Source: an uncultured Oscillospiraceae bacterium
GTDB taxonomy: Bacteria > Bacillota > Clostridia > Oscillospirales > Oscillospiraceae
Length of the DNA: 64,000 bases
Direction of reading: 5' to 3'
Assembly (NCBI GenBank): GCA_947585425.1
Contig: CANPWZ010000002.1
Location: forward strand, 62,001-126,000
Made by a program: the position numbers and the translations under genes. This document shows, piece by piece, positions 1-5,998 of this stretch. Position 1 is the stretch's first letter. Each line of letters starts with the position of its first letter. Below the pieces are notes generated by a model. It saw nothing but the letters and a program-made list of their open reading frames with translations. It did no database searches and was not told where the DNA came from.

Positions 1-1496
1 GCCCCGGCCCTGCCAGCAATCCTCCCGCCAGCGGGCAGCCCTCCGACGCCGCCTTCGGCGGCGAGATGCTGGTGGACTTCGCAAACGGCGCCGACCCCAC
101 CGGCAACGTGTTCGCCTCTGACGGCTGGTCCAACGGCAGCGTGTTCAACACCTTCTGGAAGGCCGACTACCTGACCTACTCCGACGGCCAGATGCACTTA
201 GGCATCGGCGACGCCAACGGCGAGGTGGAGCAGGGCTACTACTCCGGCGAGGCCCGCACCAACCTGTACTACGGCTTCGGCGACTACGTGGTGAGCATGA
301 AGCCCGCCAAGGTGGAGGGCACCGCCAGCACCTTCTTCACCTGCACCGGCCCCTATGACATCAACGCTCAGGGCGAGGAGAACCCCTGGGACGAGATCGA
401 CATCGAGTTTTTGGGCAAGGACACCACCGGCGTCCAGTTCAACTATTTTGTCAACGGCCAGGGCGGCCATGAGTACTGGTACGACCTGGGCTTCGACGCC
501 AGCGAGGAGTTCCATGAGTACGGCTTCCGCTGGACCGAGGACTCCATTACCTGGTATGTGGACGGCGAGGGCGTCTACACCGTCAACGCCTCCGCCGACA
601 ACCCGCTGCCCTCCACCCCCGGCCGCATCCTGATGAACTACTGGTGCGGCACCGCCGACGCCGAGGGCTGGATGGGCAAGTATGAGCTGAACGATGCCAC
701 CGCCGACTACAAGTATGTCAAGACCTCCGCCGCCGGCGCCCCTCTGGTGCCTGAGCAGGGCGGCGGCGAGCCCATCCCCGCCGAGGGCCTGGACGTGAAC
801 TTCGCCGACGGCGCCCCCGCCAACGGCAGCGTGTTCGCCTCTGACGGCTGGTCCAACGGCTCCGTGTTCAACACCTTCTGGAAGGGCGACCAGGTCACCT
901 ATTCCGACGGGCAGCTCCACCTGCACATCGCCGACGCCAAGGGCGAGGTGGAGCAGGGCTACTACGCCGGCGAGTCCCGCACCGCCCTGCACTACGGCTT
1001 CGGCCAGTATCGGGTGAGCATGAAGCCCGCCAAGGTGGAGGGCACCGCCAGCACCTTCTTCACCTGCACCGGCAACTATGACATCGGCCTGGACGGCAAC
1101 CCCAACCCCTGGGACGAGATCGACATCGAGTTCCTTGGCAAGGACACCACCGGCGTCCAGTTCAACTACTATGTGAACGGCCAGGGCGGCCACGAGTACT
1201 GGTATGAGCTGGGCTTCGACGCCAGCGAGGAGTTCCATGAGTACGGCTTCGACTGGGCCGAGGACTCCATCACCTGGTATGTGGACGGCCAGGCGGTGTA
1301 CTCCGTCACCACCGCCGACAACGGCCCCCTGCCCGCCACCAACGGCCGCATCCTGATGAACTACTGGTGCGGCACCCCCGACGCTGAGGGCTGGATGGGC
1401 AAGTACACCCCCTCTGACGCCACCGCCGACTATCAGTGGATCAAGACCACCGCCACCGGCGTGGATCTGAACGGCGGCGCCCAGGGCGCGGGCTGA
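1..1496 (+). CDS. Tandem GH16 licheninase (beta-1,3-1,4-glucanase), 5'-truncated
   Basis: Endo-beta-glucanase expected to cleave mixed-linkage beta-glucan outside the cell. The reading frame stays open to the first base of the window through a Pro/Ser/Gly-rich stretch, so the ATG at 66 is probably internal and the true start, with any signal peptide, lies upstream. Two GH16 domains lie in tandem (about 66-755 and 786-1490), joined by a short Gly/Pro linker. Each has the licheninase active-site block EIDIEFLGKDTTGVQFNY, holding the two catalytic glutamates, and later GRILMNYWCGT. This block is almost the same as in Bacillus-type lichenases, so family and likely specificity are firm. The two copies are close at protein level but differ at many synonymous sites. 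The next gene is a glycosyltransferase 66 bases on, which raises the question whether the enzyme digests food glucan or trims a self-made polymer. Confidence 0.9.
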   Translation, partial: PGPASNPPASGQPSDAAFGGEMLVDFANGADPTGNVFASDGWSNGSVFNTFWKADYLTYSDGQMHLGIGDANGEVEQGYYSGEARTNLYYGFGDYVVSMKPAKVEGTASTFFTCTGPYDINAQGEENPWDEIDIEFLGKDTTGVQFNYFVNGQGGHEYWYDLGFDASEEFHEYGFRWTEDSITWYVDGEGVYTVNASADNPLPSTPGRILMNYWCGTADAEGWMGKYELNDATADYKYVKTSAAGAPLVPEQGGGEPIPAEGLDVNFADGAPANGSVFASDGWSNGSVFNTFWKGDQVTYSDGQLHLHIADAKGEVEQGYYAGESRTALHYGFGQYRVSMKPAKVEGTASTFFTCTGNYDIGLDGNPNPWDEIDIEFLGKDTTGVQFNYYVNGQGGHEYWYELGFDASEEFHEYGFDWAEDSITWYVDGQAVYSVTTADNGPLPATNGRILMNYWCGTPDAEGWMGKYTPSDATADYQWIKTTATGVDLNGGAQGAG

Positions 1497-1562
1497 TCCG
1501 AGCGATCCGCCCCGCCGCCCGGCAAAGGCGCCGGAACATGGAATGAATGAGCGTGGAATGAC

Positions 1563-2885
1563 ATGGGATACCTCGGCGTGATCGCCACTGTTTTTATCGC
1601 CATCTGGCTTTGCTTTTTCCTGCTGCTGTTCCACTATGGGATATTCGCCCTCATCGGCGTCTTTCGCCGAAGGACCTACCCCAGAACGGATCGGCGGCTG
1701 AAGTACGGCGTCATCATCGCCGCCCGCAACGAGGCGGCGGTGATCGGCGCCCTGCTGGACAGCATCCGGGCGAACGACTACCCTCAGGCGCTGCTGCGGG
1801 TCTTTGTGGCGGCCCACAACTGCACCGACGACACCGCCGCCATCGCCAGGGCGAAAGGGGCGGTGGTGTACGAGTACGACAACCCGGCGGAGCGCACCGC
1901 GGGCTACGCCTACCGCTATCTGTTCGGCCGCATCCGGCGGGACTGGGCCGGCGAGGGGTTTGACGGCTTTTTCGTCATCAACGCCGACAACGTCCTCTCA
2001 CCCGACTACATCTCCCGCATGAACGACGCGTTCGTGGCCACGGGAGGGCGGCACGTCGTCACCTCCTACCGCAACTCCCGCAACTTCGGCAGCAACTATA
2101 TGTCCTGCCTGTACGGCATCTACTTTATCTCCGCCTGCCGGTTCGAGGCCCGGGGCCGCACCGTCTGCGACGTCAGCACCCGGGTCTCGGGCACCGGCTA
2201 TATGTTCCCCGCCGAGCTGGTGGAACAGGGCTGGGAGTACGTCACCCTCACCGAGGACTGGGAGTTCACCGCCGATCAGATCGCCCGGGGGCGGAAGATC
2301 CTCTACTGCGACGAGGCGGAGTTCTTCGACGAGCAGCCCACCACCGTCCCCGTGATGCTCCGCCAGCGGCTCCGCTGGGCCTGCGGGCACATGATCGTGT
2401 TCTTTACCCGGTTCCGGGCGCTGATGGGGGCCCTGTTCTCCCGAAAGTCCGGGCTGGACGGCAAGGGGCGGTTCTCCGCTTTCGACATCTCCGCCACCAT
2501 CCTGCCCCTGGGGGTCATCAGCGTGGGGCTGCTGCTGGCGACCCTGGCCGCTATCTCCCTGTGCCCTCTGTTCGGATACGACGGGGCGGCGGTCTGGGCC
2601 TGCTACGGGCGGCTGTCCCTGATCCTGTTCGCCGTCTCCTGGGCGCTGACGTCGATCTTCGCCGGGGTGCTGCTCCTCCTGGAGCGGCGGCGGGTCCCCA
2701 GGGTGGGGCCGGTCAAGCTGGCGGCGGCCATCCTGCTGTGGCCCCTGTTCCTGCTCCTCAACGTGTTTTTGGACGTGGCCGCCCTGTTCCTGCCCAATCT
2801 GGAGTGGAAGGTCATCCCCCACGTGGGGACGGCCGAAGCGCGCTCCATCCCTCCGGCCCCGCAGGCCGGAAAATCTGAAATCTGA
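1563..2885 (+). CDS. Membrane glycosyltransferase family 2, processive type
   Basis: 440-aa membrane glycosyltransferase. One N-terminal membrane segment (about residues 5-34) is followed by a cytoplasmic GT2 domain and three C-terminal membrane segments (about 300-330, 350-373, 388-410). The GT-A motifs are visible in order: NCTDD near 86, the metal-binding NADN near 140-143, TED at 230-232 and QRLRW at 268-272. QxxRW is the hallmark of processive synthases such as cellulose, hyaluronan or mixed-linkage glucan synthases, so a polymer product is likely; its identity is inference. The ATG at 1563 is the only in-frame ATG in that region. The gene sits between a licheninase and a GH3 enzyme, with 17 bases to the latter, so the three probably form one transcription unit. 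There is no PilZ domain, so no direct c-di-GMP control is evident. Confidence 0.85.
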   Translation: MGYLGVIATVFIAIWLCFFLLLFHYGIFALIGVFRRRTYPRTDRRLKYGVIIAARNEAAVIGALLDSIRANDYPQALLRVFVAAHNCTDDTAAIARAKGAVVYEYDNPAERTAGYAYRYLFGRIRRDWAGEGFDGFFVINADNVLSPDYISRMNDAFVATGGRHVVTSYRNSRNFGSNYMSCLYGIYFISACRFEARGRTVCDVSTRVSGTGYMFPAELVEQGWEYVTLTEDWEFTADQIARGRKILYCDEAEFFDEQPTTVPVMLRQRLRWACGHMIVFFTRFRALMGALFSRKSGLDGKGRFSAFDISATILPLGVISVGLLLATLAAISLCPLFGYDGAAVWACYGRLSLILFAVSWALTSIFAGVLLLLERRRVPRVGPVKLAAAILLWPLFLLLNVFLDVAALFLPNLEWKVIPHVGTAEARSIPPAPQAGKSEI

Positions 2886-2902
2886 TTTCTGGAGGGATCC
2901 CT

Positions 2903-5900
2903 GTGGCAAAAGAAAAAGGACAAAAGAAAAAGATGAGCGCGAAGAAGCTCACCGCCATCGTCACGCCCCTGCTGGTCATCCTGCTGGCCTTCGCCGTGGT
3001 GGTGTCCGTGGTGTCCACCAGCCGGTTCGACCTGGTGCTGCGGGACATCTTCGGCGAGACCCAGTTCGGCGGCAGCGCCGCCAGCGACGTGGACGCCGAC
3101 TACTACAAGCGTGACATCACCGACTCCAAGGAGCTCCAGGCCGCCGAGCAGGCCTATGCCCGCAAGGCCGGCGCCGAGGGCTTCGTGCTGTTGAAAAACG
3201 AGAACGAGGGCGGCAAGGGCCTGCCCGTGGCCGCCGGCTCCAAGCTGAGCCTGTTCTCCTCCTCCTCCATCGACGTGCTGGCCGGCGGCACCGGCTCCGG
3301 CGTCAGCACCATCTCCAGCGATATGCGCACCGCCCTCACCGAGCAGGGCTTCTCCATCAACGAGTCCCTGTGGAAGTTCTACACCGACAACAAGGACACC
3401 TATAAGCGGGGCGACGGCTCCATCATGTACGGCGGCGCCGAGGACTGGACCATCCGGGAGGCCCCCGTGTCCGCCATCCCTGACGAGGCCAAGAGCGAGG
3501 CCGAGGGCACCATCCCCGTGTTCTTCATCGCCCGCACCGGCGGCGAGGGCCGGGACCTGGGCCGCTATATGGGCGCCTGGACCGACGTGGCCGAGGACAA
3601 GGATAAGCACTATCTGGAGCCCAACTCCGTGGAGCTGGAGGTCATCGGCTACCTGAACGACAACTTCGACAACGTGATCATCGTGGTCAACACCAACAAC
3701 GCCTTCGAGCTGGGCTGGGTGGAGGACTACGAGCACATCACCGCCGTCCTCTGGGCCCCCGGCGCCGGCGGCGACGCCTGCCGCTCCATCGCCGACGTGC
3801 TCAGCGGCGCCATCAACCCCTCCGGCCACCTTGTTGACACCTTCGCCTATGACGCCTTCTCCTCCCCCGCCATGCAGAACATGGGCGACATGATGATGGT
3901 CAACGGGGGCCAGGACGTGGAGGCCGCCGTGTTCTATGACGAGGGCATCTACGTGGGCTACAAGTACTACGAGACCCGGTACATGGACAAGGTCCTGGAT
4001 CAGGGCAACCCCGGCGATTATGACTACGCCTCCGTGGTGCAGTATCCCTTCGGCTACGGCCTCAGCTACACCACCTTTGAGTGGTCCGGCTTCCAGATGG
4101 GCCAGATGGACGCCGACGGCAATATCCAGATCAAGGTCACCGTGAAGAACACCGGCTCTGTGGCCGGCAGGGAAGTGGTCCAGGTCTACCTGAACAGCCC
4201 CTACACCGCCTACGACAAGGCCAACTACGTGGAGAAGGCCGCCGCCTCCCTGGTGGGCTTCGAGAAGACCGGGGTCATCGAGCCCGGCGCCTCCGAGGAG
4301 GTCACCGTCACCGTCAACCGCAAGGACTTCATCTCCTATGACGACGTGAAGGCCAAGACCTACATCCTGGAGTCCGGCGACTATCTGCTCACCGCCGCCC
4401 CCAACGCCCACGCCGCCGTGGACAACTTCCTGGCCTATAACGGCACCGAGGTGGAGCCCCTGTTCGGCGGGGCCGACGCCTCCTTCGTGGGCAAGTGGAC
4501 TTACAGCTTCTCCGGCAACGGCGGGGTGGACAACGAGACCTACGCCGTCTCCCTGGCCGGGGTGGAGGTCACCAACCAGTTCGACCACGCCCACTACGAC
4601 GAGTTCACCCCTCGGGACAAGTTCCTGACCCGGCAGGACTGGGTGGGCACCTTCCCCGTGACCCACGGCGATCAGGACAGCAAGCGTGAGAGCCCCTTCA
4701 GCGAGAAGAACGGCTACACCTGGGAGATCGAGGTGTCCGACGAGATCAAGGCCAACATCCAGGCCAAGGGTGTGGGGGCCTCCATGAACCCCATGACCGA
4801 GGAGGAGGCTGCCGCCCTGGACGGCAAGTATGGCCAGAAGAACGGCCTGGAGCTCATCGACTTCCGCGGCCGCGACTTTGACGAGGTGGAGGCCGAGGGC
4901 GGCTGGGACGCCCTCATCGACCAGATGGACATCGCGGAGCTGGAGACCATCATCCGCAACGGCGGCTATCAGACCCTGGGCTCCGGCAATATGCGCAAGC
5001 CCCGGGCCATCGACTATGACGGCCCCTCCGGCCTGAACGAGGGCGGCATCACCCACGAGCCCTACTCCATCACCTATCCCTGCGCCACCAACCAGGCGGC
5101 CAGCTGGGACCGTGAGAACGCCTATTACCACGGCTACTACGTGGGCGAGGACGCCCTGGCCGCCGACGGCAACTGGGGCAATCACCAGTACACCGGCATC
5201 ATCTCCGGCTGGTACGCCCCCGCCATGAACATCCACCGCACGCCCTTCGCCGGCCGGAACTTCGAGTACTACTCCGAGGACGGCTTTATGTCCGGCGAGA
5301 TGGCCCTGGAGGCCTCCACCGCCTGCGCCCAGAAGGGCGTGTACGCCTACATCAAGCACATGGCCCTCAACGACCAGGAGGACCACCGAAGCCACGTGGC
5401 CACCTTCGCCAACGAGCAGGCCATCCGCGAGATCTATCTCAAGCCCTTCCAGACCTGCATCGAGGAGCGGGGCACCCAGACCATCACCGTCCAGCAGTAC
5501 GACGAGGCCACCAAGTCCTACACCCAGGCCCAGGCGGAGATCCCCACCGTCATGGCGGTGATGTCCTCCTTCAACCGCATCGGCTGCACCTGGTCCGGCG
5601 GCAACTGGCATCTGCTCACGGGGGTGCTGCGGGGCGAGTGGGGCTTTGACGGCACCGTCATCACCGACTACGACGGCGGCGGCACCATGGACACCGAGCA
5701 GTGCGTCCGGGCCGGCGGCGATTTGAAGCTCACCGGCTTCACCGTGGACGCCCCTCTTGACACCGCCAACAACCCCGCCTCTCGGTACTTCTCCCGGCAG
5801 GCCATCAAGCACATCCTCTACACCACCGTGAACTCCAACGCCATGAACGGCGTGGTCCACGGCGTCCATGTGGGAGAGCTGCCTTTCGCCAACTACTGGT

Positions 5901-5998
5901 TCATCATCATCGGCGTGTGGGTGGTGGCCGCCGGCCTCACTGTCTGGGGCGTGTTCGCCATCGTCCGCCGCTGGGTGAAGGAGAAGAAAGCCAACTGA
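2903..5998 (+). CDS. Domain-permuted GH3 beta-glycosidase with two membrane anchors
   Basis: 1031-aa glycoside hydrolase family 3 protein, probably a beta-glucosidase acting at the cell surface. Domain order is reversed relative to ordinary GH3 enzymes. The C-terminal-type alpha/beta sandwich comes first (about 80-365), then a fibronectin-III-like domain starting at PFGYGLSYTTF, then the TIM-barrel catalytic domain (about 680-960). Conserved blocks RTPFAGRNFEYYSEDG and KHMALNDQE are present, and the nucleophile is predicted as D922 in VITDYDGG. The acid/base glutamate cannot be placed by eye. Residues about 14-36 form an N-terminal membrane segment after a Lys-rich start, and residues about 999-1020 form a second one followed by RRWVKEKK. 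Both termini would be cytoplasmic and the enzyme external. The start is GTG behind GGAGGG. Reversed GH3 enzymes are known from rumen Clostridia; the double anchor is less usual. Confidence 0.85.
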   Translation: MAKEKGQKKKMSAKKLTAIVTPLLVILLAFAVVVSVVSTSRFDLVLRDIFGETQFGGSAASDVDADYYKRDITDSKELQAAEQAYARKAGAEGFVLLKNENEGGKGLPVAAGSKLSLFSSSSIDVLAGGTGSGVSTISSDMRTALTEQGFSINESLWKFYTDNKDTYKRGDGSIMYGGAEDWTIREAPVSAIPDEAKSEAEGTIPVFFIARTGGEGRDLGRYMGAWTDVAEDKDKHYLEPNSVELEVIGYLNDNFDNVIIVVNTNNAFELGWVEDYEHITAVLWAPGAGGDACRSIADVLSGAINPSGHLVDTFAYDAFSSPAMQNMGDMMMVNGGQDVEAAVFYDEGIYVGYKYYETRYMDKVLDQGNPGDYDYASVVQYPFGYGLSYTTFEWSGFQMGQMDADGNIQIKVTVKNTGSVAGREVVQVYLNSPYTAYDKANYVEKAAASLVGFEKTGVIEPGASEEVTVTVNRKDFISYDDVKAKTYILESGDYLLTAAPNAHAAVDNFLAYNGTEVEPLFGGADASFVGKWTYSFSGNGGVDNETYAVSLAGVEVTNQFDHAHYDEFTPRDKFLTRQDWVGTFPVTHGDQDSKRESPFSEKNGYTWEIEVSDEIKANIQAKGVGASMNPMTEEEAAALDGKYGQKNGLELIDFRGRDFDEVEAEGGWDALIDQMDIAELETIIRNGGYQTLGSGNMRKPRAIDYDGPSGLNEGGITHEPYSITYPCATNQAASWDRENAYYHGYYVGEDALAADGNWGNHQYTGIISGWYAPAMNIHRTPFAGRNFEYYSEDGFMSGEMALEASTACAQKGVYAYIKHMALNDQEDHRSHVATFANEQAIREIYLKPFQTCIEERGTQTITVQQYDEATKSYTQAQAEIPTVMAVMSSFNRIGCTWSGGNWHLLTGVLRGEWGFDGTVITDYDGGGTMDTEQCVRAGGDLKLTGFTVDAPLDTANNPASRYFSRQAIKHILYTTVNSNAMNGVVHGVHVGELPFANYWFIIIGVWVVAAGLTVWGVFAIVRRWVKEKKAN

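Follow-up and report, generated by a model that had tools for sequence, protein, structure and literature searches.

A GT2 glycosyltransferase of an uncultured Oscillospiraceae bacterium is encoded together with a licheninase-type GH16 lipoprotein, a beta-glucosidase-like GH3 protein and two regulators, and the linkage of these genes is real and goes beyond chance. The module is tentatively read as a regulated set for degrading mixed-linkage beta-glucan (beta-1,3-1,4-glucan, MLG) at the cell surface, to which the GT2 would be an accessory, a reading given somewhat less than an even chance of being right. It is favoured over synthesis of MLG by the GT2 with editing by the hydrolases on account of relatives that have the module without the GT2 and of the hydrolase-rich context in the genome.

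Gene content and upstream region of the locus

The window analysed here is a stretch of 64,000 nucleotides on contig C2 of this genome, its position 1 corresponding to C2:62001. An earlier note on this DNA had described three genes at its beginning, for a GH16 protein, a GT2 with TED and QxxRW motifs and a GH3 protein, and all three were confirmed, on the plus strand (Table 1). The description of the hydrolases as licheninase-type and beta-glucosidase-like agrees with the best PDB matches, which are 1,3-1,4-beta-glucanases for the second GH16 domain and the beta-glucosidase 2x40 for the GH3 protein.

Table 1. Coordinates of the module genes, domains and motifs (window positions; C2 positions where given)
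Feature	Position	Strand	Description
GH16 gene	1..1496, ATG upstream at C2:61919	+	~525 aa, tandem-domain licheninase-type lipoprotein
GH16 domain 1	51..722 (C2:62051-62722)	+	DEIDIEF catalytic motif; 243 bits to NF047856
GH16 domain 2	831..1451 (C2:62831-63451)	+	DEIDIEF catalytic motif; 237 bits to NF047856
GT2 gene	1563..2885	+	440 aa, PF13641/PF13632; 1 N-terminal and ~3 C-terminal membrane helices predicted
GT2 ADN, DxD-type motif	1983..1991	+	residues 141-143
GT2 TED motif	2250..2258	+	residues T230-E231-D232
GT2 QRLRW motif	2364..2378	+	residues Q268-R-L-R-W272
GH3 gene	2903..5998	+	circularly permuted, 1031 aa; hydrophobic segments at residues 11-46 and 993-1022
GH3 C-terminal-type domain, comes first	3185..3961	+	
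GH3 N-terminal-type catalytic domain, comes last	5075..5674	+	

The first 82 bp of the GH16 gene (C2:61919-62000), including the ATG, signal peptide and lipobox, precede base 1 of the window. The protein has a lipoprotein signal with the lipobox LCAC and two PF00722 domains (Pfam), both with the EIDIEF catalytic motif. Against NF047856, the model for BglS licheninases with a cut-off of 300 bits, the whole protein reaches 469 bits, but either domain alone stays below the cut-off (243 and 237). GH16 was found in the window's genome in this single gene only. At two of the loci surveyed below (L094 and L098), the GH16 protein is ~1,770-1,790 aa long, with many repeated beta-sandwich-like domains C-terminal of the catalytic domain. 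In the GH3 protein, the acid/base motif GEG and the nucleophile motif TD(Y) align to 2x40, and chain 2x42 deviates at the nucleophile position; the coordinates of the GH3 matches suggest that 5k6l and 5wug are also permuted.

The genes upstream of base 1, which the earlier note had proposed to read, encode a LytTR response regulator and a GHKL kinase, and both are kept with the module in most members of the GT2 clade described below. The gaps between GH16 and GT2 (66 bp) and between GT2 and GH3 (17 bp) are compatible with one operon. The gap between the kinase and GH16 genes (C2:61785-61918) contains a CAG-type direct repeat (CAGAATAAG and CAGTTTGAGGAA, ~20 bp apart), 3' of which a palindrome overlaps a TTGTCA -35 element, with TATAAT 17 bp further. 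The direct repeat and palindrome may represent the operator-promoter (a LytTR box) of the GH16-GT2-GH3 operon. That the palindrome is a terminator only was set aside, as it overlaps the -35 element, has the -10 element 17 bp on and follows the direct repeat. The operator-like sequence was also detected 5' of GH16 in close relatives, in the distant loci L070 and L077, and in three loci that have no GT2; the palindrome differs among relatives, yet is often still complementary. A search for a wider regulon with the operator pattern gave eight matches versus seven in the reversed control, the window's own site being the only mismatch-free one, and so revealed no regulon. Also upstream of the window on C2, one gene (L007:891-3761) encodes a large protein in which three SLH domains are combined with repeats of beta-helix-like type.

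Conserved association of the GT2 with hydrolases and regulators

Scanning of genome contigs with a GT2 alignment yielded 80 loci, of which 21 include GH16, 19 GH3 and 18 the kinase; the genes are arranged in three or more different orders. A 76-row tree unites the GT2s that have a GH16 neighbour in one clade (18 rows, support 100/99), in which a GH16 gene lies near the GT2 in all rows except L072, situated on a 9.7-kb contig, while none of the GT2s outside this clade among the 80 loci has a nearby GH16 or GH3 of the module type. A further GT2 (L078, 63% identical), which is not among the tree rows, lies on a 3.6-kb contig that is too short for its neighbours to be judged. Most rows of the clade also contain GH3 and both regulators in shuffled order; the regulators were not found at L075 and L076, and at L074 the contig ends within the locus. 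The record titles of the loci refer mostly to gut and rumen metagenomes.

It is very improbable that these genes are mere neighbours with no functional link. Although gene order varies among lineages and one lineage is without the GT2, 17 of the 18 clade members are linked, none of 500 shuffles clustered the module label as strongly along the tree, and an operator-like element 5' of GH16 is shared. Several lineages are represented among the 17 of 18 members that have retained the GT2 with the module, and in some loci a non-orthologous GH3 has taken the place of the usual one, so that the GT2 seems to be more than a passenger.

Fold, kinship and possible product of the GT2

Hydropathy analysis of the GT2 indicated ~4 transmembrane (TM) segments, and its structure was modelled from 62 sequences with a mean pLDDT of 92.7. 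In Foldseek searches with this model, hyaluronan synthases were the best matches, followed by cellulose synthase, and the membrane mannosyltransferase 6yv7 also ranked high. The likeness to the hyaluronan synthases (Chlorella virus and Xenopus HAS) lies at the fold level, with a query-length TM-score of at most ~0.65, whereas identity in these alignments is 14-16% and no HAS model is among the NCBIfam matches of the GT2. PgaC and the Listeria Pss-type GT2 are compact (400-440 aa) membrane GT2s of polymer systems, but are placed on other branches of the tree. Wider plasmid-encoded relatives were considered as a guide to function and put aside, all being below ~35% identity and adding no function.

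The earlier note had pointed to a Romboutsia enzyme and proposed placing the GT2 among known synthases, and here the outcome is mixed. Like RiGT2 of Romboutsia ilealis (CED93608.1) and the Cgs MLG synthases, it is a GT2 of a Gram-positive gut bacterium with D, D, D, QxxRW motifs, and the product of RiGT2 is lichenase-digestible (PMC10374906). However, in RiGT2 a PilZ domain is present and seven TM helices are predicted (PMC10374906), whereas the window GT2 lacks PilZ, has ~4 TM segments and is encoded alongside hydrolases and a two-component system, so that kinship by architecture is not borne out; indeed, PilZ was found nowhere in the genome of the window. In the tree, whose rows do not include RiGT2, the window GT2 falls outside a group (100/100) made up of E. 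coli BcsA, a BgsA-like pSymB protein and the clostridial PilZ synthase L142; the branches are long, and the placement is therefore proxy evidence. The pSymB protein, encoded beside an HlyD-type gene, is presumably BgsA by its architecture. At the fold level, hyaluronan and cellulose synthases are nonetheless the nearest. By these comparisons, the GT2 does not belong to the known types of MLG or cellulose synthase, and its product cannot be revealed by sequence alone.

It is possible, with a probability of roughly a third, that the product of the GT2 is a beta-1,3-1,4-glucan sensitive to licheninase, either free or anchored to lipid, and that GH16 and GH3 edit or recycle this glucan. Besides the fold matches and the tight GT2-licheninase linkage within one clade, the catalytic motifs argue for such a polymer: residues E231, D232, Q268, R269, R271 and W272 are invariant in 62 aligned sequences, and the DxD-type, TED and QxxRW (here QRxRW) motifs are invariant across the 18 members of the GT2 clade and 21 sister-clade rows. 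The GT2 is also under purifying selection (dN/dS of 0.18-0.26 between the window and L059, L060, L062 and L063). A precedent is offered by Komagataeibacter, in which the endoglucanase CMCax and the GH3 BglAx flank the cellulose synthase genes (cmcax, ccpAx, bcsABCD, bglAx; PMC6559022), likewise bringing together a GT2 synthase, an endoglucanase and a GH3 beta-glucosidase; unlike here, the synthase is BcsA-type with partner subunits and the endoglucanase belongs to GH8 and is no licheninase. On the other side stand the position of the GT2 outside the BcsA/BgsA/PilZ-synthase group, the small number of TM segments, the survival of the hydrolase cassette without the GT2 and the glycolipid-type partner of the sister clade. 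The (Q/R)xxRW motif also occurs in GT21 glucosylceramide synthases, and therefore QxxRW by itself is no proof of polymerisation. The more specific proposal that the GT2 would be a compact, PilZ-free MLG synthase that stands apart from the BcsA group and has a licheninase, a beta-glucosidase and two-component control of its own in one locus, and hence another, distinct bacterial route to MLG, appears rather unlikely.

The sister clade of the GT2 shares its catalytic motifs, and one clade-specific change is S209 in the GT2 clade versus Q in the sister clade, within the motif V(S/Q)GTGY, which may, by analogy, lie near the acceptor site. In 11 loci (L087-L106), including Anaeroplasma bactoclasticum (L099), the sister-clade GT2 adjoins a GT-B glycosyltransferase. 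One of these GT-Bs has weak matches to diglucosyl-diacylglycerol synthase (48.8 bits, cut-off 500) and to MGDG synthase 1 (E 3e-10). An Anaeroplasma record also contains three consecutive genes of the GT2's family (L093:9001-13303). This pairing with an enzyme like diglucosyl-diacylglycerol synthase, together with the lipoprotein GH16 and the doubly anchored GH3 that keep the hydrolases at the membrane, would fit a third proposal, in which the GT2 and hydrolases remodel another surface glycan, such as a lipid-anchored glucan, instead of degrading a dietary one. It is nevertheless improbable, since 1,3-1,4-beta-glucanases are the best matches of the GH16 domains and the GT-B neighbour is absent from the loci of the module clade.

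GT2-less relatives and proposed glucan degradation at the surface

A survey of 401 genomes of the family for licheninase-type GH16 gave nine positive genomes. Three of them (G215, G091 and G089, with loci L219-L221) have the regulators, GH16 and GH3 but no GT2 at the locus; their GH3 and GH16 are 80-81% and 72-73% identical to those of the window, but elsewhere in these genomes no GT2 match exceeds 34-35% identity. In the GH3 and regulator trees, these loci are nested among GT2-bearing ones, with some forks open, suggesting that the GT2 was lost in this lineage. In L219 and L221, a GtrB-like GT2 adjoins the module but was not accepted as a substitute, since the genome of the window has a gene 79% identical to it at another place; a dN/dS contrast between GH3s of GT2-bearing and GT2-less loci was dropped because shared high GC3 makes dS unreliable. 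In 12 genomes of other families, BglS-type genes had no GH3 or GT2 of the module type nearby.

The genome itself is rich in comparable genes, with ~10 related GH3s and eight GHKL kinases, several of them adjacent. The ~10 permuted, membrane-anchored GH3s are located on C2, C5, C7, C13, C48 and C57, and several adjoin a GHKL kinase and a LytTR regulator, which is an expanded set of sensor-plus-GH3 units. A C5 region with GH3 and GHKL kinase also has GH30, GH5 and GH43 genes, and a GH31 gene adjoins the module at L065.

The synthase-plus-hydrolase logic of cellulose operons that the earlier note had seen in the locus is sustained in part: the conserved GT2-licheninase linkage, a dedicated two-component system and the fold nearest to hyaluronan and cellulose synthases agree with it, but three genomes have kept the hydrolases and regulators in the absence of the GT2, and the sister clade is paired with a glycolipid-synthase-like enzyme. 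The analysis demonstrates the gene content, the conserved association, a conserved operator-like element and relatives that have the cassette but no GT2; for the favoured degradation module, the substrates, topology, regulation and role of the GT2 are inferences. The GHKL kinase and LytTR regulator would turn on the GH16-GT2-GH3 operon at its LytTR-box promoter; the lipoprotein licheninase would cleave beta-1,3-1,4-glucan on the cell surface; and the GH3, held in the membrane at its two ends and exposing its catalytic part to the outside, would trim the oligosaccharides to glucose, making a dedicated oligosaccharide transporter unnecessary. The GT2 would be inherited along with the module in an accessory role, transferring sugar to an acceptor in the membrane, either a glycolipid or a short surface glycan, which need not be what the hydrolases cleave. 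Degradation is further supported by the sister-clade GT-B pairing, the GH30/GH5 region, the GH31 gene and record titles that point mostly to gut and rumen, whereas the retention of the GT2 in 17 of 18 members, its fold nearest to processive synthases and the lack of an adjoining ABC transporter or phosphorylase count against it. Neither of the latter two genes was found among the listed neighbours of the loci (by reading and a partial Pfam scan). The MLG locus of Blautia producta encodes an ABC transporter, a GH94 phosphorylase, an AraC regulator, a GH16 of subfamily 3 with CBM4 and an intracellular beta-glucosidase (PMC10318527); the likeness lies in a cell-anchored Firmicute GH16 endo-glucanase for mixed-linkage glucan, while the window locus differs in its anchored GH3, its LytTR/GHKL regulators and its GT2.

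No published description of this module arrangement was found in a limited literature search. If the GT2 makes the glucan, gut Clostridia would gain a further class of MLG synthase and a self-contained make-and-trim system; if it does not, the module would represent extracellular degradation of cereal beta-glucan that has a two-component system of its own and includes a conserved membrane GT2. On either reading, the locus offers for comparison a well-delimited set of genes, a candidate operator and relatives that naturally lack the GT2.
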